Part shown: piece after piece, positions 3,800 through 60,533 of the stretch
Layout of the letters: each line of letters begins with the position of its first letter
How positions within the stretch are numbered: the first letter of the stretch is position 1
From: a virus
Direction: 5' to 3' (one strand)
IMG/VR virus record: IMGVR_UViG_3300044910_000908
Coordinates: 17,068 to 81,067 of that record
Length of the DNA stretch: 64,000 bases
Notes under the pieces: model-generated
The model's database searches: none
What the model was told of the DNA's origin: nothing
The model's input: the letters and a program-made list of their open reading frames with translations, nothing else
Made by a program: the position numbers and the translations under genes

Positions 3800-4849
3800 T
3801 TAGAAATTTTCCCAATAGATAACATCTGTTCCTACTGGTAGAATTCTATTAACACTGGTAGATTGAACAAAAACTTTGAAATTAGAATGGTCACCAGGTC
3901 TAACTCGAACATCAGAATATTTAGGTAATCCAATCATATCTCTAGCAACATCACCAGAATAAACATGTTTAGATGTTTTATCTTGAATAAGAATTAATTT
4001 ATTTGCTTGGATTTTATTTTCTTTTTTAACTAATTCATAAAATGAAGCTCCACGTTTCATAGAACGGCCCAATTTATGTTCTACAAAGTCTTTAATTGCG
4101 TGACCTTCTGCAGCAGTTTGAACTGTCCATTGTAGAATTTCTGAAGAAATATCAGTTAATACAGATTTAACTTCTGTAAGTGATACTTTATCAAGTGAAG
4201 TATAAAATGAAGAAGTTGAAGTTGCACCAGTTGCACGACTTCTGAAATAACCACCAATTGCTTGAGTTGTTACTTGAGAAGCTTGGTCAAGACCTTTAGT
4301 TGTTTGTTCCCATTCCTGAATATTGCCTTCAAAAATATCTAATGTTTTAGCTAATTTTTTACCATATCCTTTAGGAACTCGAAATACAAATGACCATCGA
4401 TCTGTTGCGTGTAATTGTTTGATTTTACTAGCTAAAGTTATTGCATTCCATTTAATTGAAGCATTTTCTTCACCATCTGTAATAATCATCAGAAGAAATG
4501 ATGTATTGATATCAGATGCTTCAGGTAATGCTTCAAACATTTCAATCAATTCACCAACGCTATCATAAAGTGGTGTTCCTCTACCATTAGCTTCATAGTT
4601 GCTTTCTGGAATTGGTTTTAAAACAGTGACAGATGAATTAATGATTTCTCGTTTAACAGTAGCTGACGCACCAGCACCACAATTAACAACTGATACAATA
4701 ACATCTTGGTTATGTTCTATTGCATTTTGTTTAATACTTGCTATATTGGTATTGTAATCTCTAGCTGCTGCTTTAGTGATACCTCTCATTGAGGCGCTAT
4801 GGTCCAATGAAAAGCCGATGAAAGTTTTGATATTAGGTTGATTTTCCAT
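3800..4849 (-). CDS. VWA-domain protein with MIDAS motif
   Basis: 349 aa from the ATG that follows GGAGAATTTT. A longer frame exists 12 codons upstream but has no RBS. The von Willebrand A domain covers about residues 8-190: D16-x-S18-x-S20 (DHSAS), Thr92 in GRGTPLYD and TDGEEN at 124-129 make a metal-binding MIDAS. The C-terminal half is unassigned. VWA proteins often act as substrate adaptors for MoxR-type AAA ATPases (established for RavA-ViaA and CbbQ-CbbO), and this phage encodes a large double-AAA MoxR-like protein at 28436-31147, a plausible partner. Both early and late promoters lie upstream. Confidence 0.8.
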   Translation of the reverse strand: MENQPNIKTFIGFSLDHSASMRGITKAAARDYNTNIASIKQNAIEHNQDVIVSVVNCGAGASATVKREIINSSVTVLKPIPESNYEANGRGTPLYDSVGELIEMFEALPEASDINTSFLLMIITDGEENASIKWNAITLASKIKQLHATDRWSFVFRVPKGYGKKLAKTLDIFEGNIQEWEQTTKGLDQASQVTTQAIGGYFRSRATGATSTSSFYTSLDKVSLTEVKSVLTDISSEILQWTVQTAAEGHAIKDFVEHKLGRSMKRGASFYELVKKENKIQANKLILIQDKTSKHVYSGDVARDMIGLPKYSDVRVRPGDHSNFKVFVQSTSVNRILPVGTDVIYWENF

Positions 4850-6206: not shown

Positions 6207-7256
6207 TTAAAGAAATTTGGAAAAATCAATATCAGAAATGTCATTTACAATTGAATTAGATAGATAACTACTAATTTCAGTTTCTTGAGGAGCAACTTGA
6301 ACATTACTAGAATTAAAATGTTTTTCAATCCATGGTAATGGATGACTAATTTTTGCATTTTCAGAAGATAAACCGAGAGTTTTTAATTGTTTTGGTAATA
6401 GATAACCATCAATATAAGAAGTCAAAATTTCCTCATTTAAACCAATAATAGAACCATCTTTAAATAAATGTTGTGCCCAAATAATTTCTTGTTCAGCAGC
6501 GGATTTGAAAATATTTTTAGCTTTTTCTCTATTATCTCCTATAATTTGAATAAATTCTGGGTCATCTTTAGGAAGTAATTTCAATGTATGCTGAACAAAT
6601 GCTAAATGTTGAATTTCATCTCTAGCGATTAATTTTACAATTTTTCCAGAACCTTCTACTTTAGCTCTTTCAACGAATGAAAATGTTGATGCAAATGACA
6701 CATAAAAACGAATTGCTTCTAATGCATTAGCCGCTATTAATGCTAGATATAAATTTTCCTTATTAGGATTATTCACCATTTGATCATAGACTTTCGTGAC
6801 ATCATTTGCACAATCAGCTATTTCTTTTATATTAGGCATGTCATCTATAACAACTTTAGGGTCATTATAAATTGCTCTCAAAATATAAGTATAAGACATT
6901 GAATGAATACTTTCCATGAAAGACCACGTTAATAAACAATTTTCCATGGATGGATCTGTACAATGTGGCAAAAATACTAACGCTGGAGCTCTTCCTTGAA
7001 TGCTATCTAACAAAATCTGTCTTTTTAGATTTTCAGTAAAAACAAATTGTTCAACATCAGTTAATGAATTAAATGATCTTTTTTCTTGGCTCATATCTAT
7101 TTCATTTGGGCGCCAGAAAAAACTTTGCATTTTTTCATTTAATTTATCTAAAATTTCATATCTTGTAATCTCATATCGAGAAATACCATGACCACATTCT
7201 CCAAAAAATAATTTATCTGGATGAACTGACATTGTAAAAACTGAATTATTTGGCAT
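6207..7256 (-). CDS. nrdB: Ribonucleotide reductase class Ia, beta subunit
   Basis: 349 aa, close to E. coli NrdB (376 aa). Makes and holds the diiron-tyrosyl radical used by NrdA to reduce ribonucleoside diphosphates. Visible ligands and landmarks: LLDSIQGR (Asp ligand), ESIHSMSYTYILR (Glu, His and the radical Tyr), NALEAIRFYVSFA (Glu) and ARDEIQHLAF (Glu, His). The C-terminal DNIQVAPQE-like stretch and acidic tail would dock to NrdA. RBS AAGGAGAAAATAAT. It forms an operon with nrdA, 18 bp upstream. Confidence 0.97.
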   Translation of the reverse strand: MPNNSVFTMSVHPDKLFFGECGHGISRYEITRYEILDKLNEKMQSFFWRPNEIDMSQEKRSFNSLTDVEQFVFTENLKRQILLDSIQGRAPALVFLPHCTDPSMENCLLTWSFMESIHSMSYTYILRAIYNDPKVVIDDMPNIKEIADCANDVTKVYDQMVNNPNKENLYLALIAANALEAIRFYVSFASTFSFVERAKVEGSGKIVKLIARDEIQHLAFVQHTLKLLPKDDPEFIQIIGDNREKAKNIFKSAAEQEIIWAQHLFKDGSIIGLNEEILTSYIDGYLLPKQLKTLGLSSENAKISHPLPWIEKHFNSSNVQVAPQETEISSYLSNSIVNDISDIDFSKFL

Positions 7257-16724: not shown

Positions 16725-17071
16725 TATCTATATCCTCTTGTTGTATAATGTTCACCATATTGAACTCTTGATGCTGCACCTTCAACAACAAAATGTCCAT
16801 AACTTCCCATACATTGTTCATACAAATCTCTAAACACATATTCAGAAGCATAACCTTGATAATTAGTTTTTACTTCAGATTGAATAAAAGCTTGTTTATA
16901 ACATGATTCATAAGCTTTTCTCCAAGCTTGATAATTTACTCCAGAAGAGGAATTATGAGGATTAGGATACCAACCTGTATTATTTCCATATCTCCATTCA
17001 GGACCATACATATTTTCAGCAAAAACATTATTAACTGAAAATAATAAAATTGCTATTATTAGAGTTTTCAT
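16724..17071 (-). CDS. Secreted protein of unknown function, 115 aa
   Basis: Signal peptide MKTLIIAILLFSVNNVFA with cleavage after VFA. The mature part is aromatic-rich with two cysteines (C38-like and C79-like), which suggests a disulphide in the periplasm. RBS GAGGATATTAAGAAG. Confidence 0.65.
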   Translation of the reverse strand: MKTLIIAILLFSVNNVFAENMYGPEWRYGNNTGWYPNPHNSSSGVNYQAWRKAYESCYKQAFIQSEVKTNYQGYASEYVFRDLYEQCMGSYGHFVVEGAASRVQYGEHYTTRGYR

Positions 17072-26199: not shown

Positions 26200-27297
26200 T
26201 TAACCTCTTGTATTATTAATAATTCTAATACTATCTACTTCTGAATATCTAATACTTTGGGTAGAATAGTATTGATTAGTTACTACTTCTAGAGACATAG
26301 TTTTATCTTCACGTTGATGGATACGTTGTTCAAGCAAATATAATGGAGACATAAATTCAAATCCAATAATGTAATAATTATGTTGTCTCAAAATAGTAAC
26401 CCATTGTCTTCTAGATTTTGGGCTTAGATTTGTATTGTCAATAATAATATTTTTATTTTGTTTAATAAATTCATTGAATTTTTTTCTAGTATATTCATTG
26501 AATTTTTCTGCATGTTCATTACAATAATTCCAAGCTTGTTTATATAGTTCTTTTATATTTGTTGTATGTTCTGGAAATATGTTAGAATAATATTCAATTC
26601 TATAATTATCAAAACTAAAGATAACAGTATTAGCATCTTGCATTAATTTTTCAGAAACTGTGCTTTTTCCAGAACCAGAAGGACCAACCAAAATATAAGC
26701 AGTTAGACCTGAATTATGTTTTTGATCTTGTTCTTGGAGATATAGAGTTTCATTAACCCAATTAGTAACAAATGGAATTTTACTATCTTCAGTAATTCTC
26801 CCACCAGCATCTGATAATAGAACATCAGCAAACATTTGAAGATTTCCAGTCAATGCTCTTGTACTATCAATTCTAAAATCATTATAACATTTTCTACCAT
26901 AAGGCAAATGATTTTCAATCATCCATCTTACTTGACGAATTTGCAAATCAGTTAAACCAAAATTGTTATTAGATAATACATAATCTTCAAATATTCTAGC
27001 AGATACTAGTTCATGTCCAGCATATGATTTATGCTGACCACGTTTTTCTGTAAATTTTTCTACTTCACATTTTGGTTTACCAACATCATGAAATAGAAGA
27101 GCCAATTGAGAAAGTAGTCTTTCATTTTCACTTCTATTTAGAAAGAAGTGTTCTTTATAAAAACGAAGTGTCATTTGTGTATGGACGGCAGTATTTTCTT
27201 CTCTATGATAAGGAGAATTTTCCTGAGTCATGAGCATGTGATGCCAGTATGATGTTTTAGTAAAGTTATGATAGATGTCTTCAAATTGTGTAGTCAT
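26200..27297 (-). CDS. HD-Pnk: HD-domain phosphoesterase fused to polynucleotide kinase
   Basis: 365 aa in two domains. HD domain (about 1-185): metal ligands H39, H70-D71 (FHDVGKP), H95, H130 (ENHLP) and an Asp near 163 (LLSDAGGR). Kinase domain (about 198-350): P-loop GPSGSGKST (205-213), FSFDNYR with the substrate-binding Asp, IIIDNTNLSPKSRR and a lid-like QRIHQRED. This matches the HD-Pnk architecture described from Runella, where the HD part removes 2',3'-cyclic phosphates and the kinase phosphorylates 5'-OH ends, that is, RNA end healing. An RNA ligase at 59895-60533 could then seal. A direct link to the insertion-bearing tRNAs is an inference. Confidence 0.85.
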   Translation of the reverse strand: MTTQFEDIYHNFTKTSYWHHMLMTQENSPYHREENTAVHTQMTLRFYKEHFFLNRSENERLLSQLALLFHDVGKPKCEVEKFTEKRGQHKSYAGHELVSARIFEDYVLSNNNFGLTDLQIRQVRWMIENHLPYGRKCYNDFRIDSTRALTGNLQMFADVLLSDAGGRITEDSKIPFVTNWVNETLYLQEQDQKHNSGLTAYILVGPSGSGKSTVSEKLMQDANTVIFSFDNYRIEYYSNIFPEHTTNIKELYKQAWNYCNEHAEKFNEYTRKKFNEFIKQNKNIIIDNTNLSPKSRRQWVTILRQHNYYIIGFEFMSPLYLLEQRIHQREDKTMSLEVVTNQYYSTQSIRYSEVDSIRIINNTRG

Positions 27298-33189: not shown

Positions 33190-35049
33190 TTATTTTTTAA
33201 AACCTTTTAGAGAAGTTGCATTTTCAGCATTATTGTGATTTGCTGATTTACCAGGTGCTGCTTGGTCGCCGTTACCATGGCCGTTATTATCATGTTTTGA
33301 GTCATGGTCATTATCATGATGATTTTTATATTCATGATGATTTTCTTTATGACCACCAGTACTTACTGAAGGTTGATTAACATAAACTATTTTTTCGATT
33401 ACTCTATCTACTGGAACTTCGATATATGTTTCAACAATTCTATCTACTGGAACTTCAACCAAAACTTCTTTAATAACCACTTTCATTTGAGCTTCAATTA
33501 ATGCTGCTTGTGTATCACTCAATGTTGTTTGACTAGATACCAAATCAGTTGAACACATTTTCAAATTAGTTGAAAGATTGCCATTATTAAATTCACTATT
33601 TACCAAATCACTTGATACTTTAGCTAATGAAGTTTCTGTTGTTGTTAATTGATTTTGCAATGCAGCTAATTGTGCTTTCAATGCTGCATTTTCTGCATTC
33701 AAATCAGTTTCAACTTGTCTTAAACTTGCAAGTTGAGTATCTTCTGCACCAACTTCACAACTATAAGGATCAGCAGCTGTATCAATACATTGTTTGATTT
33801 TCAGAACTACTGGGTCTACCCAACTTAGCAAGCTAATATCATTAGAAAGTTGATATTCTACTGAAGCAATTGTTCCATTATTTACTAGTGAAGCATTAGG
33901 GAAAGCATGTTTTTCAACAAAGCTATCATCACCTAATTGACCAGAAGAAGCAGCTCCAATACTATGATAACCACGACTACTTACAACAGTGAATGTTTCA
34001 TTACTAGCACCTACATATTGAACATTAGTTCCAGCTTCTTGGACTGGTGTAGCATAATCAGTTCTAAGATAACCACCTGAACCGATATAATTATGCCATC
34101 CCCAAGCACTTACAGAACCATTATTGTTGATTGCGAATGCTCCATTATTTGAACCAACTACAAAATCAACTCCAAATGCTCCTTGAACTTTAACTAATGA
34201 AGGATTACCAGCTTTACCAACATCAACATTAATCCAACCTGATTGATAAACATCTCCATTAGTTGTAACAATGTAACCCATACTTGCACCAACTGCAACA
34301 GCTTTAGCAACAACATTTGGTACTTTTACTGGTGTAACAACATCATCAAAGTTTCCTAAACCTAATTGACCTTTATCATTATGACCCCAAACATAAACAG
34401 AACCATCTGAACTTAAAGCTCTGAAATGTTCAAGATTAACTAGTGGATTAGTTGTTTGACCTTTGCCTGCAAATCTATAACCAGCCGCGATTGATGTGAT
34501 ATTTTCTGGAAGATTTGCAACAACTGTTGGAGTATGAGATGTGTTAAAATCCCATTCATAAACAACTCCTGAACCTTTAACATCACCTTCTTTCAGCATT
34601 AACATTTTAGTGCCACCAACTGCAACATCAATAACACCAGAGATGTTAACAGCTTGTGGAACAGTTGAAACATAGCTATCAGTTGGAGTGCCTTGAACTA
34701 GATTAGATACTGCACCCCAGAAGTAGACTGAACCATCTTCTTTTAATGCAACTGAGCGATTACCTGCAGCTGCAACATATTTTACACCAACCAGACCAGT
34801 ATGAACTGGAACTTTATATTTCACGTCTCTGTTCATTAAGAATGAACCACCTGAGTAGATAGGTTCTCTTGAAGCCATCGCACCTACTTGATTTAGTCTA
34901 TTATTACCTGCGGCATAGACATCGCCACTATCATTTACAAATACGTTATGATTAAATCCACCTGCAACTTTTGTTTGAATTGCTTGTGCATTCATTGAGA
35001 AGGTAGCAACGATTGCAGCTACCAATACTTTATTATATGTTGTTTTCAT
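33190..35049 (-). CDS. Secreted RCC1-repeat beta-propeller protein with coiled coil
   Basis: 619 aa. Signal peptide with cleavage after MNAQA (about residue 23). Residues about 25-385 hold RCC1/ATS1-type repeats, seen as GDVYAAGNNRLNQVG, GSVYFWGAV, GSVYVWGHNDKGQLGLG and similar. A coiled coil follows (about 435-520), then a repeat with PVDRIVETYIEVPVDRVIEKI, and a His/Asn/Asp-rich tail ending TSLKGFKK. An exported propeller of this kind is unusual for a phage. It may act in the periplasm, on the cell surface, or be an adhesin (inference). It has its own early promoter and terminator, so it is a stand-alone unit. RBS GAGGAGAAATACC. Confidence 0.85.
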   Translation of the reverse strand: MKTTYNKVLVAAIVATFSMNAQAIQTKVAGGFNHNVFVNDSGDVYAAGNNRLNQVGAMASREPIYSGGSFLMNRDVKYKVPVHTGLVGVKYVAAAGNRSVALKEDGSVYFWGAVSNLVQGTPTDSYVSTVPQAVNISGVIDVAVGGTKMLMLKEGDVKGSGVVYEWDFNTSHTPTVVANLPENITSIAAGYRFAGKGQTTNPLVNLEHFRALSSDGSVYVWGHNDKGQLGLGNFDDVVTPVKVPNVVAKAVAVGASMGYIVTTNGDVYQSGWINVDVGKAGNPSLVKVQGAFGVDFVVGSNNGAFAINNNGSVSAWGWHNYIGSGGYLRTDYATPVQEAGTNVQYVGASNETFTVVSSRGYHSIGAASSGQLGDDSFVEKHAFPNASLVNNGTIASVEYQLSNDISLLSWVDPVVLKIKQCIDTAADPYSCEVGAEDTQLASLRQVETDLNAENAALKAQLAALQNQLTTTETSLAKVSSDLVNSEFNNGNLSTNLKMCSTDLVSSQTTLSDTQAALIEAQMKVVIKEVLVEVPVDRIVETYIEVPVDRVIEKIVYVNQPSVSTGGHKENHHEYKNHHDNDHDSKHDNNGHGNGDQAAPGKSANHNNAENATSLKGFKK

Positions 35050-39286: not shown

Positions 39287-40021
39287 TTACTTAGAAAACT
39301 TAGCCATTATTTGAGCTACTGCAATAGGAACAGTTGCTGAACCTCTTCCTCTAAAACAAGTATAAAGTTCTTCAAATTTATATCTTAAATCAGTATATGC
39401 TGGAGTTGGATTACATTCATAAATTTTAGCCATATTTGAAGCAGCATTTCTAACTAAATTAGCGGCTGGCCATACTTGACCACTAGTCCCAACTACTAAC
39501 ATAACTAATGAATTATCAGCTGCAGTTTCTGCTAATTTAAAATCTTGCTCATTTAAATCTTCTCCAAACCAAACCACATTAACTCGCATATTAGCACCAC
39601 AACAAGAACATATAGGAACTTCTGCTAATTCCCAATATTCTGCTTCATTAGTAGTATATTCGCAAGTTTGACATCTTAATGCTTTTAAATCTCCATGTAA
39701 TTCAATTACATTTTTTGAACCTGCTTGTTGATGAAGTCCATCAATATTTTGGGTAATTAAAAGAAAATCATGTCCTTGTTTTTCTGCCCATTCTTCTAAT
39801 TTTACTAATTCTTCATGGGCTCTATTAGGTTTAATTGTTTTAAGATTATCATATCTTTGTTTATAAAAATCCCAAACTAATTGTGGATTTTTTTGAAATC
39901 CTCTTGGAGAAGCAACATCTTCCACTCTATGATTTTCCCATAAACCATTATTATCCCTAAACGTTGGAACACCACTTTCTGCTGATACTCCTGCACCAGT
40001 AAATACTGTTATATATGACAT
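39287..40021 (-). CDS. Sirtuin (Sir2-family NAD-dependent deacylase)
   Basis: 244 aa, like bacterial CobB. GAGVSAESGVPTFR (8-21), the Y-x-x-R pair in FYKQRYDN typical of class III desuccinylase-type sirtuins, TQNIDGLHQQAGS, ELHGD with the catalytic His, zinc ligands CQTC and CSCC, VVWFGE and a GTSGQVWPAA block. It deacylates protein lysines and consumes NAD. Phage sirtuins may counter host NAD-based defences or alter host enzymes (inference). RBS AAGGAGTTATAAGAAAA. Confidence 0.92.
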   Translation of the reverse strand: MSYITVFTGAGVSAESGVPTFRDNNGLWENHRVEDVASPRGFQKNPQLVWDFYKQRYDNLKTIKPNRAHEELVKLEEWAEKQGHDFLLITQNIDGLHQQAGSKNVIELHGDLKALRCQTCEYTTNEAEYWELAEVPICSCCGANMRVNVVWFGEDLNEQDFKLAETAADNSLVMLVVGTSGQVWPAANLVRNAASNMAKIYECNPTPAYTDLRYKFEELYTCFRGRGSATVPIAVAQIMAKFSK

Positions 40022-40519: not shown

Positions 40520-41101
40520 TTATTTTTTTCTAAAATCTAAAATTTGTATCTCTTTTTCTAACACTAAACAATTTTCCATTATTGGAGCATTGACAACTTT
40601 AAAGTTTTCCGAATTATCATCTTCCTGAATAACTTGTCTAACAACCATATGTAAATGACCTAATGCATTAAACCCAACTAATTCACTCCCATCTTCATTT
40701 GGTTTGGCGCCCCAAAAATCATCCTTCTTTGAAATCTCCACAATATCTCTTGTTCCAGTTTCAATTAATGCATCACGATATTTTTTATGCTGAGCAGCTT
40801 TGAGACGTAAACACCAATACATAATTTGAACTCTATCGTCATCAAAACCTCTATACGTATGCGTTTTCCGATACTTTTTGGATACCATCTTAGCACCCAT
40901 ACCACTTTTCTGTTCTAATATCTCTTGCTGAATTTCAGGATGAAACACAAATCTCATCATTTGATAAAGATTTTCTGTTGATGGAACTAAAATGTCTTTA
41001 GACAATCTTATCGGAAATCCTCCAGTCATATTACCGAATTCACCCCATTTATCTTTTGCTCTAGAAAAAGCACATACCTCTTCAACTTTATAAGTATTCA
41101 T
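40520..41101 (-). CDS. NADAR-family protein (ADP-ribose / guanine ADP-ribosylation related)
   Basis: 193 aa. The family pattern is clear: CAFSRAKDKWGEFGNMTGGFPI, STENLYQMMRF with STE-YQ, HPEIQQEIL, SGMGAKMVSKKYR, MYWCLRLKAAQHKKYRDALIETGTRDIVE, FWGAKPN and GFNALGHLHMVVR. NADAR (DUF1768) proteins hydrolyse ADP-ribose-type N-glycosidic bonds; some act as antitoxins that remove ADP-ribose from guanine in DNA. It could protect phage DNA from DarT-type toxins (inference). RBS GTGGAGATAAAAAG. Confidence 0.88.
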   Translation of the reverse strand: MNTYKVEEVCAFSRAKDKWGEFGNMTGGFPIRLSKDILVPSTENLYQMMRFVFHPEIQQEILEQKSGMGAKMVSKKYRKTHTYRGFDDDRVQIMYWCLRLKAAQHKKYRDALIETGTRDIVEISKKDDFWGAKPNEDGSELVGFNALGHLHMVVRQVIQEDDNSENFKVVNAPIMENCLVLEKEIQILDFRKK

Positions 41102-49455: not shown

Positions 49456-49559
49456 TGGAGCTCGAGAGAGGATTTGAACCTCCGACCGGCTGATTGTTCA
49501 ATACTCTCTTTAGAAAGCATTCAACAAATCAGCTGCTCTACCAACTGAGCTACTCGAGC
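49456..49559 (-). tRNA. tRNA (Thr-UGU or Val-UAC) with a 28-nt insertion in the anticodon loop
   Basis: 104 nt against the usual 76. Acceptor GCTCGAG / CTCGAGC, U73, encoded CCA, intact D arm (GCTC AGTTGGTA GAGC), anticodon stem GCTGA / TCAGC, variable loop CGGTC, T arm GGAGG TTCAAAT CCTCT. The anticodon loop is 35 nt instead of 7, the excess being a 9-bp hairpin (AATGCTTTC / GAGAGTATT, loop TAAA). Removing 28 nt gives a normal loop: TTTGTAA (Thr, UGU) or TTTACAA (Val, UAC), depending on the join. A late promoter element lies 10 bp upstream. Confidence 0.8.
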
Positions 49560-49568
49560 AATATTTTT

Positions 49569-49576
49569 TATTTATA
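49569..49576 (-). promoter_or_regulatory. Late promoter TATAAATA upstream of the insertion-bearing tRNA
   Basis: Exact element on the minus strand, 9 bp before the tRNA 5' end, a spacing that would start transcription at or near the mature 5' end. Confidence 0.55.
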
Positions 49577-49602
49577 ATATTTTAAAAGTAATGTAATAAC
49601 CA

Positions 49603-49743
49603 TTAACTTTCATTTACTCCACGTTTAGTTAATTCTTTTTTAATCAACGCGTTTCTTTTCTTTTTATTGCCGTAAGCTGCTTGCAATTTATCAATTTTCA
49701 TTGTTGCTAATACTTGACCATGTTTTGAAACTTTTGCTGACAT
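49603..49743 (-). CDS. Small basic protein, 46 aa
   Basis: MSAKVSKHGQVLATMKIDKL, rich in Lys, with NKKKRNALIKKELTKRG. Strong RBS AAGAGGAGAAGTTA. Probably nucleic acid binding. No family recognised. Confidence 0.6.
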   Translation of the reverse strand: MSAKVSKHGQVLATMKIDKLQAAYGNKKKRNALIKKELTKRGVNES

Positions 49744-49786
49744 TAACTTCTCCTCTTTGTTGTAATAAAATATTTCTTAATATTCT

Positions 49787-49948
49787 TTATATAGCAGAAA
49801 ACATTAAGAAATATTCTACATATTTCCTGTTGAAGTGTTTAACTTTTCTTTTATAAGAAGTTTTATCTTCTTCAACTTTTGGTTTATTAAATTGATGACA
49901 ATGTTTTGCCACAAAATTATTTATTATTGGTTTGTTTTTCTTTTTCAT
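49787..49948 (-). CDS. Small basic protein, DUF7230-like, 53 aa
   Basis: MKKKNKPIINNFVAKHCHQFNKP matches a pattern of small phage proteins (basic, N-x-VAKH-x-x-x-FN-x-P, then K-x-Y-x-RK-x-KH). The tail is NRKYVEYFLMFSAI. Strong RBS GGAGAAATTAAAT. Confidence 0.6.
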   Translation of the reverse strand: MKKKNKPIINNFVAKHCHQFNKPKVEEDKTSYKRKVKHFNRKYVEYFLMFSAI

Positions 49949-49950
49949 AT

Positions 49951-50115
49951 TTAATTTCTCCTATTATAACAATCTGATTGCCAATGACCATTATTATTTA
50001 TATGACATATTTTTTCACTTGACATATTAGGTAATTTTACATCCATAACATAACCAAGTGATACTATCAATATCAATAATGTAAGTAGTATTAATTTTAT
50101 TGTAAATTTATCCAT
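49951..50115 (-). CDS. Single-pass membrane protein, 54 aa
   Basis: Start at MDKFTIKLILL behind AGAGAATGCAAAG. One TM helix (LILLTLLILIVSLGYV) and a C-terminal C-x9-C pair. Overlaps the upstream gene by 8 bp. Confidence 0.55.
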   Translation of the reverse strand: MDKFTIKLILLTLLILIVSLGYVMDVKLPNMSSEKICHINNNGHWQSDCYNRRN

Positions 50116-50293
50116 CTTTGCATTCTCTTTGCCAAACAACGTGATTACTATTATTTCCTTTAACATATACAACACACTGTTGTAATCCTGCTTTTGCCAT
50201 TTGTTCATTTTCTGTTTTGCTTATATTGTCTGATATAAGCAAATAAATTAGAAAGAAAATTATACAAAAAATTAAATAATTATTTTTATCCAT
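50108..50293 (-). CDS. Single-pass membrane protein with C-x-x-VWQREC tail, 61 aa
   Basis: TM helix (YLIFCIIFFLIYLLI), then GLQQCVVYVKGNN and VVWQREC. The tail resembles that of the 77-aa protein at 59198-59431 (GLKEC...VWQEEC), so the two are related. The cysteines probably pair outside the membrane. Confidence 0.6.
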   Translation of the reverse strand: MDKNNYLIFCIIFFLIYLLISDNISKTENEQMAKAGLQQCVVYVKGNNSNHVVWQRECKDG

Positions 50294-50727
50294 TAAACAA
50301 TTCTCGCTTCTTCAAATTTAACTAATAATTTGCCAATACTATCATTATTCTGTTTAACTAAATAATATCCATAATAATAATCGCATATACCATCAATAAT
50401 TCCTTTATCTAATTGTGTTCCTATTTCATAGGGTGGTTCAACATTATTTTCTTCAAACCATTTTTTTCGTTCTTTTTGTAAATAATCATTAGCTATATAA
50501 TCTAAATCATCCAATGCGTTTACAAATTGTAAATCTACATCCCAACCATAATGGGTATCTAAATATTTCCCAATTTCATATCCATCGGATATTGAAGAAT
50601 ATCGATAACCATCTATCAGTATAGATAAATCGCATCCATGCTCTTTTGAAAAAGGTTCAAATGCTTTTTGTAGTAATTCAATTGTTTCTGTTGGTGCTTT
50701 AGGATATTTATCCATTGGATGTGTCAT
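50293..50727 (-). CDS. Unknown protein, 144 aa
   Basis: Acidic, helical, Tyr-rich C-terminus (GICDYYYGYYLVKQ). RBS GAGGAAATAAAT. No motif recognised. Confidence 0.6.
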   Translation of the reverse strand: MTHPMDKYPKAPTETIELLQKAFEPFSKEHGCDLSILIDGYRYSSISDGYEIGKYLDTHYGWDVDLQFVNALDDLDYIANDYLQKERKKWFEENNVEPPYEIGTQLDKGIIDGICDYYYGYYLVKQNNDSIGKLLVKFEEARIV

Positions 50728-50729
50728 AT

Positions 50730-50939
50730 TTATTTCCTCGTTTTAACTTTAAATAAGGTTGGACCTTCAATTAATACTTTTTCACATTTAAAATTTATCT
50801 GACTTGACGATAAATTAGTAAATACAACTTTTTCGTCTGATAAACATTTACTTTGGCTAATTGTAATTTCTTCTTCTGTTGGTTTTCTTTCAACAGAGGA
50901 ACATCCAACAACTAATAAAATTAATATTAAATATCTCAT
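50730..50939 (-). CDS. Small lipoprotein, 69 aa
   Basis: Signal peptide with lipobox LVVGC (about 9-13), then CSSVERKPTEEEITIS-type mature part with two further cysteines. The RBS is poor; translation may be coupled to the upstream kinase gene, whose stop overlaps its start region by 1 bp. Confidence 0.6.
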   Translation of the reverse strand: MRYLILILLVVGCSSVERKPTEEEITISQSKCLSDEKVVFTNLSSSQINFKCEKVLIEGPTLFKVKTRK

Positions 50940-51448
50940 TATAAATATTTTTTAATAAATTCAAATTTTACTTCATTGCTATTAACATCAATATAAGAAC
51001 AATTAAATTTATTTAAAATACTTTTAATTTCTTCAGATAATTCTTGTGATTGAGCTTCATCTTGATTTCTACCAATTTGCTGATATTCATGTGTTCTATG
51101 TAAAAAGAAATTAATGTTCTCATAAGAATTAAAAATTTCAGAAGTTAATTCAGCAAGTAAAGGATAATAAGATAATTCCTTTGATTGATAAGCAATATTC
51201 ATAATTAAAGGACTATCAGTAATTACATAATCCACCTTACCTTGCAATCTTAATAATCTTCTATGTTGCTTAGCAAAAATATATAACTGGTCAGAAAATA
51301 AATTCTGACGTTCTTCCCATACTGCATCCTTAGCATATTCAGTAATCTCCTCTACATTATATCCTGCTATTTTCATATCAGCAAAAATGCGAGCTCTTAA
51401 AGTTGATTTACCACTACCAGGAGCCCCGATTAGATTAATGATTTTCAT
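50939..51448 (-). CDS. P-loop nucleotide kinase-like protein
   Basis: 169 aa. Walker A IGAPGSGKST (6-15), then IITDSPLIMNIAY (DRSP-type motif with the catalytic Asp, about 75-87), a HRTHEYQQIGRNQDEAQ lid-like stretch. The pattern fits AAA_28/NadR-type or deoxynucleoside/gluconate-like kinases; the substrate is not readable. RBS AGGTAGTATA. Confidence 0.7.
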   Translation of the reverse strand: MKIINLIGAPGSGKSTLRARIFADMKIAGYNVEEITEYAKDAVWEERQNLFSDQLYIFAKQHRRLLRLQGKVDYVITDSPLIMNIAYQSKELSYYPLLAELTSEIFNSYENINFFLHRTHEYQQIGRNQDEAQSQELSEEIKSILNKFNCSYIDVNSNEVKFEFIKKYL

Positions 51449-51451
51449 ATA

Positions 51452-51763
51452 CTACCCTAATATGCTTGTTAAAATATTTTCAGGAATACTGCTGTCATCA
51501 ACAGAACAAACTCCTTCATAATTAAAATGAACTGGAGTATTATCATTGTAATAATATTCTCCGCCTTTCCATCCTTCAAAGTGATGATTAACAGCATCTT
51601 TAAGATAATCTAACATTTGTTGGATAGTAATATCATTTTCATTTGGTGGAAAACTTACATGATCATAATATCCTCTATGAGCATGTGGATAACCAAATCC
51701 AAAAGCACAAACTTTATCTTTTGGCTGAGTTTCTAAAAGCATTCTTAATTCTTTTATAGTCAT
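51452..51763 (-). CDS. Unknown protein, 103 aa
   Basis: LRMLLETQPKDKVCAFGFGYPHAHRGYYD and WKGGEYYYNDNTPVHFNYEG; a pattern I associate with small phage proteins, but no function. RBS GAGGATGATTAA. Confidence 0.6.
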   Translation of the reverse strand: MTIKELRMLLETQPKDKVCAFGFGYPHAHRGYYDHVSFPPNENDITIQQMLDYLKDAVNHHFEGWKGGEYYYNDNTPVHFNYEGVCSVDDSSIPENILTSILG

Positions 51764-51964
51764 TTAATCATCCTCTCCTCTATCCCAATTCAAATTAAGT
51801 GCCTCTTGATAACCATCCATAAATATTCCATTTCTCCATTCATCAAATTGGGCAAAATCGATTTTGCGCTGTTTAACTAATTCAAACACCGTTTCAGGAG
51901 TCATTTGTTTAATTTCAAAATCATAAAATGAACCATCTGATAATGTTATTTGTATACAACTCAT
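51764..51964 (-). CDS. Small unknown protein, 66 aa
   Basis: Acidic, with MTPETVFELVKQRKIDFAQFDEW. RBS AGAGGATATAGAA. Confidence 0.6.
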   Translation of the reverse strand: MSCIQITLSDGSFYDFEIKQMTPETVFELVKQRKIDFAQFDEWRNGIFMDGYQEALNLNWDRGEDD

Positions 51965-51994
51965 TTCTATATCCTCTTATTAATCTATGAGTAT

Positions 51995-52023
51995 ATAATA
52001 TACCAAAACTATTAAAAAGTAAA
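51995..52023 (-). promoter_or_regulatory. Early promoter
   Basis: TTTACT, 17-bp spacer, TATTAT reading leftward. Confidence 0.65.
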
Positions 52024-52026
52024 TAT

Positions 52027-52305
52027 TTAAATTTGATATTTGAATTTACTTAACAATTTATTTGCTTCTTCTTTATTATTTTCCAATACTGCTTTTAGAT
52101 CTTGCTCATGTTTTGCTTCTAAAATATTTAATTGTTCTTTAAGCTTTAATCCAGCTTCTTCAGGAATAATGAATTGAGGTCTAAATAACGCATTTCCATA
52201 ACTTCCGATTTTTACTAAACCATCATCTCTCACTTCATCAATAACACCGCATAATAAATATGGAAATCTATCATACTTCCAAAATGCCATTAAATTTTTA
52301 TCCAT
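52027..52305 (-). CDS. Unknown protein, 92 aa
   Basis: N-terminal small beta domain (MAFWKYDRFPYLLCGVIDEV, ALFRPQFI) and a C-terminal coiled coil (AKHEQDLKAVLENNKEEANKLL). RBS GAGGTAAAATCTA. Confidence 0.6.
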   Translation of the reverse strand: MDKNLMAFWKYDRFPYLLCGVIDEVRDDGLVKIGSYGNALFRPQFIIPEEAGLKLKEQLNILEAKHEQDLKAVLENNKEEANKLLSKFKYQI

Positions 52306-52519
52306 TAGATTTTACCTCTTCAAAATAAAAATGCAACGTTTGTTCTTTAGAAATTTGTTTATAACATCTTGCAATGTCACAACGAAAACTATCCATTCTG
52401 AATAAACATAATTGACATTTTTCATTTAAAGTAGATGAAACCATTTTTACTAATGGTCCACCACCTACGTAGTGTGCTTCACCAATTTTGAAACCATTAA
52501 CTGTTATATCTTCTGACAT
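52298..52519 (-). CDS. Small cysteine-rich protein, 73 aa
   Basis: NEKCQLCLFRMDSFRCDIARC gives four closely spaced cysteines, probably a metal or iron-sulphur type site. Preceded by GEAHYVGGGPLVKM. RBS AGAGAATATAAC. Confidence 0.6.
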   Translation of the reverse strand: MSEDITVNGFKIGEAHYVGGGPLVKMVSSTLNEKCQLCLFRMDSFRCDIARCYKQISKEQTLHFYFEEVKSNG

Positions 52520-52803
52520 GTTATATTCTCTTCATCTGTTTGTGTAAATAAAAAAGCTTCTGATTTACTATCATTATACATCACAATCTCGTAAAAGTAA
52601 ATATCTTTTTTATTTAAAACACCTCTAAAAGACTTATCAATATTCAGCATTTGCGGTAAATTTGCAACTTGATTAAAGAATTTTACAACTCTATCTCTAT
52701 AAGTTTCTGAACTATCTTGAGCTAATTTGATTGTTACTCTGGTGGGAGTAATAGTCAATTTAAATCGACTATTACCTTTATCTTGAATTTCTAATGTTTT
52801 CAT
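52504..52803 (-). CDS. Unknown protein, 99 aa
   Basis: Alpha/beta, starts MKTLEIQDKGNSRFKLT, with a YDSKSEAFLF region. Single gene directly behind the early promoter at 52839-52866. Confidence 0.6.
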   Translation of the reverse strand: MKTLEIQDKGNSRFKLTITPTRVTIKLAQDSSETYRDRVVKFFNQVANLPQMLNIDKSFRGVLNKKDIYFYEIVMYNDSKSEAFLFTQTDEENITCQKI

Positions 52804-52838
52804 CTTTTTATATACTCTTTTTTCATCGAATTTGAAAT

Positions 52839-52866
52839 ATTATACACTAAATCCCAAAAAAGTAAA
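52839..52866 (-). promoter_or_regulatory. Early promoter
   Basis: TTTACT, 16-bp spacer, TATAAT reading leftward, overlapping the end of the deacetylase gene region. Confidence 0.65.
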
Positions 52867-52873
52867 ACTATTT

Positions 52874-54064
52874 TTAATAAAATCTCAAAATTGTTTTATA
52901 GGTATTGGCTAATGGAGCAGGCATAGTCATTAAAACTTTATTAACCGTTTCTACTTTTACATTATTATCCTGTAAATATTGTAGAACTTGTTCATATTGA
53001 ATTAATGGATAATTTTCATCAGTTGTAGTTTCAGGGTAAAATGAATGAAAATTTAATATTAACCATTCATTATTGGCTATGGCATTGTCAATCCACTTCT
53101 CAATCAACCCTACTGGTGTCCATTTATCAACACTAATTCTATTGATATTGGTTCTATCCACTATTGGTAAAATATTATTCATTCCATCAATATTTAACAT
53201 TGCTAAATAATTACTTTTTACAACATTAGCAACTCTATCATTATGAATACCATTAGGATAAGCGAATACTGAATTCCCCTTAGTATTGTTAGATGTTAAG
53301 TAATTTTTAGTAGTGGAAATAATAGAACTTAATTTAGTAGCTGATACAGTTTTAAGATTGTATTTTACTGAATGTCCGCCAATTTCCCAATTTGAACTAT
53401 TAATCTGATTGAATTCTGTAGTTGATATAAATGGAGATGTATTAAAAACATTCTCATCAATATAAATACTTGTGTCAATATTATAACTTTGAGATAATTG
53501 TAAAGCATCCATTATTGTTTCATTGCCATCATCTATAGTTATTGAAACAATTGGATTAGTTCCTGTGCTAGGAATAATTTCTAAATTTGAAATTTGTGCT
53601 GAAATTCTGGATCCGCCTCTATCTCGCAATCTCCACATAAATGAATTAATTTGAGATGCATTAGGAGAACCGTATTTGTATAATTCACTAAAAGGAATAA
53701 CCACATTTATCCATTGATTATTAGTAGGAGATTGAATATGCCAACTTAAATCAATTTCATATGTATTATTAAAATCAGTTCCAGAACTTGAAAACATTAA
53801 AGAAAATTCATCTAATTGGGACCAATCAGAAACTTTAATTCTTGCTCTAATACCTGATTTTTCGATAGAAATAGGAGTATCATAATAAGAAAAAACTCCA
53901 GAATATTCCATCCATCCTGTAGTGTTTAAAGAAATAATATTAGAAGTTGTATTAACTGAATACGACGTGTAATCATAATATTGATATAATTCCTGTTTTA
54001 CAATTTTACTATATGTTAATGTTGGCAATAACATTAACATAATAAATACTATTTTTTTAATCAT
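52874..54064 (-). CDS. Secreted polysaccharide deacetylase with beta-sandwich domain
   Basis: 396 aa. Signal peptide MIKKIVFIMLMLLPTLTYS, then a beta-sandwich (about 25-165) of carbohydrate-binding type, then a NodB-like domain: VSITIDDGNETIMDAL (motif 1, about 172-187), EIGGHSVKYNL (motif 2, where the usual H-S-x-x-H has Tyr in place of the second His), SVFAYPNGIHND (motif 3), and LILNFHSF (motif 5). The enzyme removes N-acetyl groups from surface polysaccharides. The missing second metal-binding His may mean altered or lost activity. RBS AAGGAGATTAGAATAT. Confidence 0.8.
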   Translation of the reverse strand: MIKKIVFIMLMLLPTLTYSKIVKQELYQYYDYTSYSVNTTSNIISLNTTGWMEYSGVFSYYDTPISIEKSGIRARIKVSDWSQLDEFSLMFSSSGTDFNNTYEIDLSWHIQSPTNNQWINVVIPFSELYKYGSPNASQINSFMWRLRDRGGSRISAQISNLEIIPSTGTNPIVSITIDDGNETIMDALQLSQSYNIDTSIYIDENVFNTSPFISTTEFNQINSSNWEIGGHSVKYNLKTVSATKLSSIISTTKNYLTSNNTKGNSVFAYPNGIHNDRVANVVKSNYLAMLNIDGMNNILPIVDRTNINRISVDKWTPVGLIEKWIDNAIANNEWLILNFHSFYPETTTDENYPLIQYEQVLQYLQDNNVKVETVNKVLMTMPAPLANTYKTILRFY

Positions 54065-54153
54065 ATATTCTAATCTCCTTTATTAATATCTCGTAAAATT
54101 AATCTTCTAAATTTCTTATCAACATCATGAGACCAAACTCTATGATTTAAAAT

Positions 54154-54284
54154 AAGAATGCTCTGCTGACACGGAGGGACTCGAACCCCCAACCCTCTGA
54201 TTAAGTGAAGAACTCTCTATCCATGAAAGTTCTTGGGTCAGTCAGATGCACTGCCATTGTGCTACATGTCAGCAGAGCATTCTT
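54154..54284 (-). repeat. 18-bp inverted repeat extending a tRNA acceptor stem
   Basis: Arms AAGAATGCTCTGCTGACA (54154-54171) and its exact complement (54267-54284). The inner part is the acceptor stem of the tRNA at 54166-54271; the outer 12-13 bp lie beyond the tRNA ends. Confidence 0.8.
54166..54271 (-). tRNA. tRNA-Asn(GUU), with a 34-nt insertion in the anticodon loop
   Basis: Acceptor TGACATG / CGTGTCA, G73 (the Asn discriminator), D arm GCAC AATGGCA GTGC, anticodon stem TCTGA / TCAGA, variable loop GGGTT, T arm GGGGG TTCGAGT CCCTC. No CCA is encoded. The loop is 41 nt instead of 7; the excess is a 10-bp hairpin (AAGAACTTTC / GAGAGTTCTT, loop ATGGATA). Joining CTG to TTAA restores the Asn loop CTGTTAA. 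The related CTTTC/GAGAG arms also occur in the tRNA at 49456. The acceptor stem is extended by an 18-bp inverted repeat. Confidence 0.8.
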
Positions 54285-59431: not shown

Positions 59432-59905
59432 TTATTTCTCCCATAAGTTTTTCCACCATTGATTAGTTTCAACATTTAAAGTTGCTTGATGTTGTATTTG
59501 AAAATCAAACCAAAAATCTTTAATTCTACAACAATCTTCTAATGATAATCTATTATGATCTATCATATCATGAAATAACCAACAATGTTTAAATACATTT
59601 AATTCTTCAGGATTTATACCAATCTCATTATGAATACATTCTCCACCAATATATCCTAAACCATTTGAAAGATATTGTGTTGAACAATACAAAATAATAT
59701 CATCTTCTTTATGTTCTTCTACATCATTCTCGTTAATTAATCCATAAATTTTTACAGATAATTCAAAATCATCCAAAGGATTATCATTATCATTTAATTG
59801 ATTTAATAATTGTGATTTATAAAATTCAAAAACTTTAACAATAGTTTGTTCTATTTTTATTAATCTTTCGTTTAAAGTTTCTAAATACTTATAATCAATT
59901 GTCAT
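59432..59905 (-). CDS. Unknown protein, 157 aa
   Basis: Helical, acidic; HKEDDIILYCSTQYL and FKHCWLFHDMIDHN. RBS TTAGGTTAAAAA. It overlaps the RNA ligase gene by 11 bp, so it may be functionally linked. Confidence 0.6.
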   Translation of the reverse strand: MTIDYKYLETLNERLIKIEQTIVKVFEFYKSQLLNQLNDNDNPLDDFELSVKIYGLINENDVEEHKEDDIILYCSTQYLSNGLGYIGGECIHNEIGINPEELNVFKHCWLFHDMIDHNRLSLEDCCRIKDFWFDFQIQHQATLNVETNQWWKNLWEK

Positions 59906-60533
59906 TTTTTAACCTATTAGGTATTATTGGTTTATTCATCCAATGATCGTCTGTGACAACGTGGTTCTTTCTAACATATTTGGCAACACTATGTTTAAAT
60001 GCTGATATATGAAAAATATCTTTTAATCTAATTACAAATCCTTCTTGTTTTTCAAAATTCATTGTATTAATTAATTCATTTATAATATCTTCATTATACA
60101 TTCCATCATATAATACTGGAACTGTTGTTAATCCTAAGTTTCTACATTCTTCAACAGTATCATCCCAATGACAACATAAATCATTAGAATACGTTGAAAA
60201 TACTTCAAAATAAGAAGTTAAATTATCGTAAGGAATACTGTGTTGAGCATAAAGATTTTCACCACAAAATCTTAAACTTTCATGAACTTGATATGCAATT
60301 AAAGGAACAACATTGCCTTTAATCCAATTTCGAGAAGGATGATTATTACTATCAATAGAACGAGCGTGAAGATAACCATCAGCATAAATCGTGGTATTTT
60401 CGCCATCTCGTTTTTCAGAAATGATAATATGTTTATTTTTAAAATGGTCCATATTCCTCAGAACTTTATCATCTGATGTAGCACCAGGTGATTGAGGAAT
60501 ATGGAATGTTCTTTGATATTTAATTCTGTCCAT
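59895..60533 (-). CDS. RNA ligase, Rnl2/Rnl5-like
   Basis: 212 aa. RTFHIPQSPGATSDD at the N-terminus, motif I K41-RDGE (SEKRDGENTTIY), motif III-type GENLYAQHS (91-99) and YFEVFS (108-113), motif IV EGFVIR (164-169), motif V KYVRKN (185-190). All nucleotidyltransferase motifs are present. It joins RNA ends via AMP transfer. Together with the HD-Pnk at 26200-27297 it makes a complete RNA heal-and-seal set. It overlaps the next gene's region and is followed by a 157-aa partner. Confidence 0.88.
   Translation of the reverse strand: MDRIKYQRTFHIPQSPGATSDDKVLRNMDHFKNKHIIISEKRDGENTTIYADGYLHARSIDSNNHPSRNWIKGNVVPLIAYQVHESLRFCGENLYAQHSIPYDNLTSYFEVFSTYSNDLCCHWDDTVEECRNLGLTTVPVLYDGMYNEDIINELINTMNFEKQEGFVIRLKDIFHISAFKHSVAKYVRKNHVVTDDHWMNKPIIPNRLKNDN

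Follow-up and report, generated by a model that had tools for sequence, protein, structure and literature searches.

The tRNA genes of an 81-kilobase (kb) virus contig raise the question of how a tRNA whose anticodon loop is interrupted by a hairpin could come to decode. The stretch analysed here (the window) comprises 64,000 nucleotides (nt), positions 17,068 to 81,067 of IMG/VR record IMGVR_UViG_3300044910_000908, and two tRNA genes on its minus strand, A and B, carry such interruptions. Enzyme-spliced tRNA introns are a hallmark of archaea and eukaryotes; for the tRNA introns of bacteria and phages, to our knowledge, self-splicing of the group I type is the only established mechanism. Judged from their sequences, the inserts in A and B look like a new class of phage tRNA intron, built to one recurring hairpin design.

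Four minus-strand tRNAs of the window match the Rfam tRNA model, among them A (49559-49459; 59.5 bits) and B (54271-54166; 54.2 bits), and in both of these the model assigns the surplus nucleotides to the anticodon loop. ARAGORN misses both genes by default (no introns), and finds both, with inserts of 28 and 34 nt, when introns are permitted. The resulting anticodon loops of 35 nt (A) and 41 nt (B) fold as hairpins with inner arms CTTTC and GAGAG. Rfam, ARAGORN and folding therefore bear out a first-pass annotation of the window, which had described two loops 28 and 34 nt too long with the excess in a hairpin; the inner arms that it had reported as common to both inserts are likewise seen in the folds. 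The fold of A is better than 200 of 200 shuffles (z -5.6), whereas the fold of B stands out less (z -2.0) and is equalled by 10 of 200. The helix of A is not limited to the inner hairpin, as the 3' portion of the insert is paired with nucleotides of the anticodon and the pairing reaches the anticodon stem. The features of the two genes are as follows.

49456 to 49559, minus strand: tRNA-Thr(UGU) gene A, CCA encoded, anticodon loop interrupted (Rfam tRNA model; spliced form compared with phage tRNA-Thr).
49496 to 49523, minus strand: putative intron of A, a hairpin of 28 nt, UGAAUG CUUUC UAAA GAGAG UAUUGAAC, between nt 36 and 37, predicted mature loop UUUGUAA (from the 6/8 ruler described below and the pairing table).
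49504 to 49517, minus strand: core of A, CUUUC-UAAA-GAGAG, with the conserved U.G wobble.
54166 to 54271, minus strand: tRNA-Asn(GUU) gene B, U1-A72 and G73, CCA not encoded, anticodon loop interrupted (Rfam tRNA model; spliced form compared with phage tRNA-Asn).
54205 to 54238, minus strand: putative 34-nt hairpin intron of B, ACC CAAGAA CUUUC AUGGAUA GAGAG UUCUUCAC, placed between nt 34 and 35 on the assumption of an Asn product with loop CUGUUAA.
54213 to 54229, minus strand: core of B, CUUUC-loop-GAGAG.

Removal of the inserts would leave recognisable tRNAs. Spliced A has the loop TTTGTAA, the anticodon of Thr(UGU), G1-C72, C2-G71 and an encoded CCA, and spliced B has the loop CTGTTAA, the anticodon of Asn(GUU), U1-A72 and G73. 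In BLAST comparisons, which include the loop and are not fully independent of the anticodon, spliced A aligns with phage tRNA-Thr, its best annotated relatives, over the full length without gaps at 81.6% identity, and the best match of spliced B is phage tRNA-Asn (full length, 83% identity). The body of A alone is also nearest to Thr. Of the two identities first offered for A, Thr fits G1-C72, C2-G71, the BLAST matches and the ruler, and Val was rejected; the assignment of B to Asn is supported.

The same design recurs in the tRNAs of other phages, where the first-pass annotation had suggested looking for CTTTC-loop-GAGAG inserts. A scan for this pattern followed by a T arm, over 2.9 million viral contigs, returned mostly noise together with clear tRNAs; most matches, being chance or ordinary tRNAs, were discarded by structure, and the set was enlarged by further patterns, by ARAGORN with introns and by a covariance model. 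The family comprises 19 sequences from 15 tRNA loci and covers seven isotypes (Thr, Asn, Arg, Lys, Leu, Met(CAU) and Trp) and eight phage lineages, namely the window phage, the Aeromonas straboviruses, and the contigs G003, G004/G005, L119, L168, L185 and L306. The sequenced Aeromonas phages Aeh1, Ah1 and PX29 carry the insert in a tRNA-Arg(UCU). With several independently sequenced isolates carrying the insert, an assembly error is excluded for the family. The existing annotation gives the intron-bearing gene as a tRNA-Glu of 105 nt in Aeh1 and as a two-piece tRNA-Lys in PX29, and has no entry for it in Ah1; both public labels are probably wrong, the two genes being tRNA-Arg(UCU).

NC_005260.1, 114904-115008: intron-bearing tRNA gene of Aeh1, annotated tRNA-Glu.
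GU396103.1, 101162-101261: intron-bearing tRNA gene of PX29, annotated tRNA-Lys.

In the Aeh1 genome paper Arg-UCU is not listed, three tRNA pseudogenes stand in the table, and no such introns are described (PMC1524935). The covariance model, R1, was built from twelve anticodon arms and matches, outside this training set, L168 Asn (E 2.5e-8), L276 Lys (4.1e-8) and L035 Asn (1e-5) and, more weakly, L306 Trp (1.4e-4) and L048 Leu (0.004). Window B stays below threshold, not reaching E 1, because of its extra nucleotides.

The boundaries of the inserts can be read from phages that carry the same tRNA in both states. Phage phiAS5 has an intron-less tRNA-Arg(UCU), CTTCTAAGCAC (CTTCT-AAGCAC), at a locus shared with PX29, and the orthologous PX29 gene reads CTTCT-TATGAACTTTTACGAGAGCACATAAG-AAGCAC, with an insert of 26 nt; the comparison places the intron boundary uniquely, between nt 36 and 37. 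In the 315-kb phage L185 two tRNA-Lys genes about 1 kb apart, one intron-less (TTT) and one with an intron (CTT), are identical in their 80 non-loop bases. Splicing of the intron-bearing gene would give CTCTTAA, a Lys(CTT) isoacceptor whose partner differs at the wobble base, with a boundary that slides by up to 2 nt. One ruler emerges, with the predicted 5' cut 6 nt ahead of the core and the predicted 3' cut 8 nt beyond it. This 6/8 ruler yields an exact 7-nt loop and a coherent anticodon in 17 of the 19 sequences, 16 of them with U33, and cases found after the ruler had been fixed also fit, with predicted loops for Met (CTCATAA), Asn (CTGTTAA), Lys (CTTTTAA) and Trp (CTCCAAA; this tRNA has A1-U72 and G73). 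A constant position relative to the anticodon was rejected, the cut falling after nt 36 in some genes and after nt 35 in others. Since the cut position varies and the distance to the core is constant, the ruler would count from the core rather than from the anticodon.

The arms also share a fold. When the twelve anticodon arms were aligned and a helix of 20 pairs was counted, 92.1% of the cells were paired, against 68.6% in shuffles; changes on both sides were seen at 16 of the 20 pairs, and the covariation score was 0.64 against 0.21. In slid registers pairing drops to about 50%, a control somewhat in favour of the helix, which was derived from the same twelve sequences. From its base upwards the helix consists of the five anticodon-stem pairs, a bulged nt 32, paired nt 33-36, six further pairs with one frequent mismatch (often G.G), and the five-pair core, C-W-U-Y.../...R-G-W-G. 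Core pair 3 is U.G in 19 of 19 sequences. As this pair is invariant while its neighbours vary, the conservation points to the U.G wobble as the recognised feature. On this helix the predicted 5' cut lies opposite the bond two nt inside the 3' cut in 17 of the 19 introns.

These properties bear on two familiar kinds of intron. Anticodon loops are generally known as insertion sites of group I introns, which in bacterial and phage tRNAs occupy the same region; those are self-splicing ribozymes of hundreds of nt, whereas the present inserts, at 26-34 nt, are far below the size of a group I core (P3-P8). Rfam finds no intron in the window, only tRNA being matched, and catalogued RNAs, group I and group II introns included, were rejected; the first-pass annotation had rightly set group I aside. 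An origin of the inserts as decaying group I introns or as palindromes inserted at random is very improbable, as covarying, recurrent structure and near-identical introns in different isotypes are not random. The resemblance to archaeal and eukaryal protein-spliced introns (EndA/SEN plus ligase) is closer, with a short intron in the anticodon loop, anticodon nucleotides that pair with the intron, and removal by a presumed endonuclease and ligase, and a genuine archaeal intron (L291) appeared in the pattern scan. The phage class, however, lies usually between nt 36 and 37 or nt 35 and 36, in a bacterial host; in most sequences paired positions flank both of its predicted cuts, the one bulge is at nt 32, and instead of two 3-nt bulges 4 base pairs (bp) apart there are cuts staggered by 2 nt in a continuous helix. 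Moreover, EndA (PF01974) is absent from 14 phage records and was detected in four of four archaeal controls. Introns of bulge-helix-bulge type, cut by an EndA-family tRNA-splicing endonuclease, are thus the least probable explanation of all those weighed. The earlier statement that such introns are not known from phages is uncontradicted, but tRNA introns described as enigmatic and unclassified had already been reported from Lak megaphages (PMC6784885). The latter resemble the present class in being phage tRNA introns; Lak-A1 has no match to model R1 at E<=1, and its two long tRNAs are without the core.

Alternatively, the hairpin might be retained and the molecules serve as decoys for anticodon nucleases or as other non-decoding RNAs. 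Large phages do, as is generally appreciated, confront anticodon-nuclease defences, and phage tRNAs that evade these have been treated elsewhere (PMC10264068). Nothing specific was found in support of the decoy function that the first-pass annotation had listed; an unspliced molecule would have no anticodon loop, the intron-less orthologues and paralogues are ordinary tRNAs, and over seven isotypes the exon boundaries are kept, as are identity elements and coherent anticodons. The predicted anticodons, furthermore, fill gaps in the tRNA sets of the phages: the other tRNAs found in the Aeh1 and Ah1 cluster include no Arg, none of the four anticodons predicted from the intron genes of G004 is present among the intron-less tRNAs found there, and neither of the two predicted for G003 is among those found in that contig. 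Retention is accordingly improbable, and the predicted anticodons are best taken as additions to the tRNA sets of these phages. Among the tRNAs of the G004 phage (L087) there is also one with a CUA anticodon (labelled Pyl by ARAGORN), a possible amber suppressor. Of the options first listed, the spliced mini-intron is the one strongly supported by comparison, through intron-less partners, a constant ruler, covariation and coherent anticodons, and by these sequence comparisons the family is a real, recurrent and structurally conserved class of phage tRNA mini-introns, which are very probably removed precisely.

How removal might proceed is suggested by the geometry. The anticodon arm of the precursor would form a nearly unbroken helix of 20 bp; an endonuclease specific for double-stranded RNA, of which host RNase III is the likeliest, would cleave both strands, 6 nt before and 8 nt after the core, and release a hairpin with a 2-nt 3' overhang; a phage-encoded RNA ligase would then join the tRNA halves into a normal 7-nt anticodon loop. 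Cuts 2 nt apart across a helix give a 2-nt 3' overhang, the hallmark of RNase III, and the predicted staggered cuts, overhang and helix of about 20 bp are those of an RNase III substrate. The enzyme cuts the two strands 2 bp apart, and its distal box is richer in U-G wobbles in Bacillus subtilis and Escherichia coli (PMC11780869); for E. coli RNase III a 12-bp stem is enough for cleavage of one strand (PMC8708148). Religation is expected because a tRNA cut in its anticodon loop would not be expected to decode, and RNase III ends (5'-phosphate, 3'-hydroxyl) could be sealed directly by such ligases. Two genes of the window are candidates for the later steps.

59895 to 60533, minus strand: ATP-dependent RNA ligase, candidate sealing enzyme (PF09414, PHROG 24030).
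26200 to 27297, minus strand: protein with an HD-type N-terminal domain (by eye) and a C-terminal P-loop polynucleotide-kinase-like domain, candidate end-healing enzyme (Pfam AAA_33, 4.7e-19).

The second protein matches T4 polynucleotide kinase weakly, and we take it, from its motif, to be an HD-Pnk-like end-healing enzyme; its action would be needed only if the nuclease left a cyclic phosphate and a 5'-hydroxyl, ends that it could prepare for sealing. An ATP-dependent RNA ligase (PF09414 and/or PF09511) is encoded in 11 of 12 intron-bearing records, counting the G004/G005 matches, which lie below the curated cut-off (E 2e-6), and the twelfth record is a 44-kb fragment. RtcB was found in G004/G005 only, and RtcB-type joining was rejected as a general route. 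The first-pass suggestion of a repair substrate comes close in one sense, namely that joining is probably by a phage RNA-repair ligase.

Several observations weigh against this account. The 5' half of the ruler is broken by window B (ACC, 3 nt extra) and by the L048 Leu tRNA (UUCA, 4 nt), both of which retain the 8-nt 3' distance. For RNase III no strong consensus has been reported (PMC8708148), and the core is conserved more strongly than the enzyme is known to need; in addition, its substrate would be short, the helix having 20 bp, a bulge and many mismatches. No RNase III is encoded in 13 of 13 phages tested; a phage-encoded enzyme was therefore rejected, and the nuclease would be that of the host. 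Finally, PF09414 is also present in three of six intron-less, tRNA-rich control records, and as RNA ligases are common in large phages the association of ligase and intron is weak. An alternative with the same introns is that a dedicated phage or host endonuclease reads the U.G core and leaves a 2',3'-cyclic phosphate and a 5'-hydroxyl, which phage polynucleotide kinase/phosphatase would heal and RNA ligase seal, as in T4 tRNA repair. The conserved core with its invariant U.G would be explained in this way, the constant 6/8 distances suit a core-bound ruler enzyme, and the window phage encodes both an RNA ligase and the kinase-like candidate; no candidate nuclease was found, however, a 2-nt stagger over a helix is atypical of metal-independent RNases, and the restriction of RtcB to G004/G005 also speaks against it. 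We regard a dedicated enzyme as a possible but rather unlikely agent. RNase III, or a close functional equivalent, is favoured with some reserve as the nuclease, joining by a phage ligase is probable, and the whole model, of an intron class cut by host RNase III or a similar enzyme and sealed by a phage RNA ligase, appears reasonably likely on present sequence evidence.

Parts of the proposed pathway have parallels. Intervening sequences of bacterial 23S ribosomal RNA (rRNA) are excised by RNase III (reviewed in PMC8708148), and are alike in being hairpin inserts in a structural RNA with staggered double-strand cuts (predicted here for the phage class); they differ in their size of 100-200 nt, in their location in rRNA and in the absence of religation, whereas the phage anticodon loop must be resealed. 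When T4 repairs PrrC damage with PseT/Pnkp and Rnl1, the broken anticodon loop is resealed by an RNA ligase of the phage, as proposed here, and Aeh1-type phages encode a homologue of T4 Rnl1; that damage is inflicted by a host toxin at a single site, whereas the phage introns would require two programmed cuts around an encoded hairpin. No description of the hairpin intron class was found in the literature searched, most subscription journals lying outside its scope. Whether bacteria-infecting viruses own an enzyme-based form of tRNA splicing, with mobile hairpin introns, an RNase III-type double cut and phage-ligase joining, is in our judgement evenly balanced. If they do, self-splicing and the EndA/SEN pathway would be joined by a third way of splicing tRNAs, which would give phage RNA ligases a physiological, constructive job besides the repair of damage. 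Hairpin introns in T4-like and other large phages, long-sequenced isolates among them, make enzyme-based tRNA splicing in bacteria directly testable, and the intron class would explain misannotated or "missing" phage tRNAs. It also raises the question of whether the intron shields the anticodon loop against tRNA-cutting defences of the host until the phage has produced its ligase.

The distribution of the introns suggests an element carried by phages and able to move from one tRNA gene to another, a reading based on intron likeness, on a strict scan of cellular genomes and on the intron-plus/intron-minus pairs. The window Thr intron resembles those of L168 Asn (z 7.5) and L035 Lys (z 7.4), across isotypes and phages, a likeness that extends beyond the core, to which the common core nevertheless contributes. 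When 84,980 bacterial and archaeal genomes were scanned with a strict pattern, six matches were obtained, none a bacterial case and one the archaeal tRNA intron L291, and a scan of 250 bacterial genomes, run without a positive control, gave none. A search for close relatives of the window phage through a neighbouring protein found none; the window RNA ligase led to six, with no tRNAs at those loci, so that there is as yet no intron-less orthologue for A or B.

Gene B has a further structural peculiarity. The tRNA forms the tip of a 20-bp helix (window 54154-54284), its acceptor stem being extended by 13 perfect bp formed from leader and trailer.

54272 to 54284, minus strand: 5' leader arm of B, AAGAATGCTCTGC, perfect complement of the 3' trailer, extending the acceptor stem by 13 bp.
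54154 to 54166, minus strand: 3' trailer arm of B, GCAGAGCATTCTT, partner of the leader arm in this extension.

The Aeromonas tRNA-Arg genes have an extended acceptor stem as in B, with or without the intron, and among 789 phage tRNAs that lack the intron just 5 have an extension of at least 9 bp. A tie between extension and intron was rejected, as the intron-less phiAS5 tRNA also has one.

Other inserts were seen in tRNAs during the searches. Two tRNAs of the 230-kb phage L086 (9817-9983 and 11735-11890) carry related inserts of about 80 nt that share TTATGNGAG..., TATAGNCTCC and CTTCAAAGTT, a second and larger class with no Rfam match except tRNA. On L296, a contig in a Ruminococcus genome bin, four tRNAs (4372-4614 and 6546-6802) have inserts of about 36-48 nt that share ACAGCAAT/ACTGCAA-like sequence and possibly form a third class. 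In addition, the anticodon stem of a tRNA-Asn on L095 (4109-4237) and L104 (6138-6267), and also on L100 and L102, is interrupted on its 5' strand by about 55 nt that include ACTTT...AGAGT-like arms.

Elsewhere in the window, genes for Sir2 and NADAR domains (39287-40021 and 40520-41101) lie near each other, pointing to NAD-related counter-defence, and a match to the CBASS inhibitor Acb3 family among the open reading frames points to counter-defence against nucleotide signals. A protein of 619 amino acids with RCC1-type repeats, unusual for a phage, is encoded at 33190-35049.

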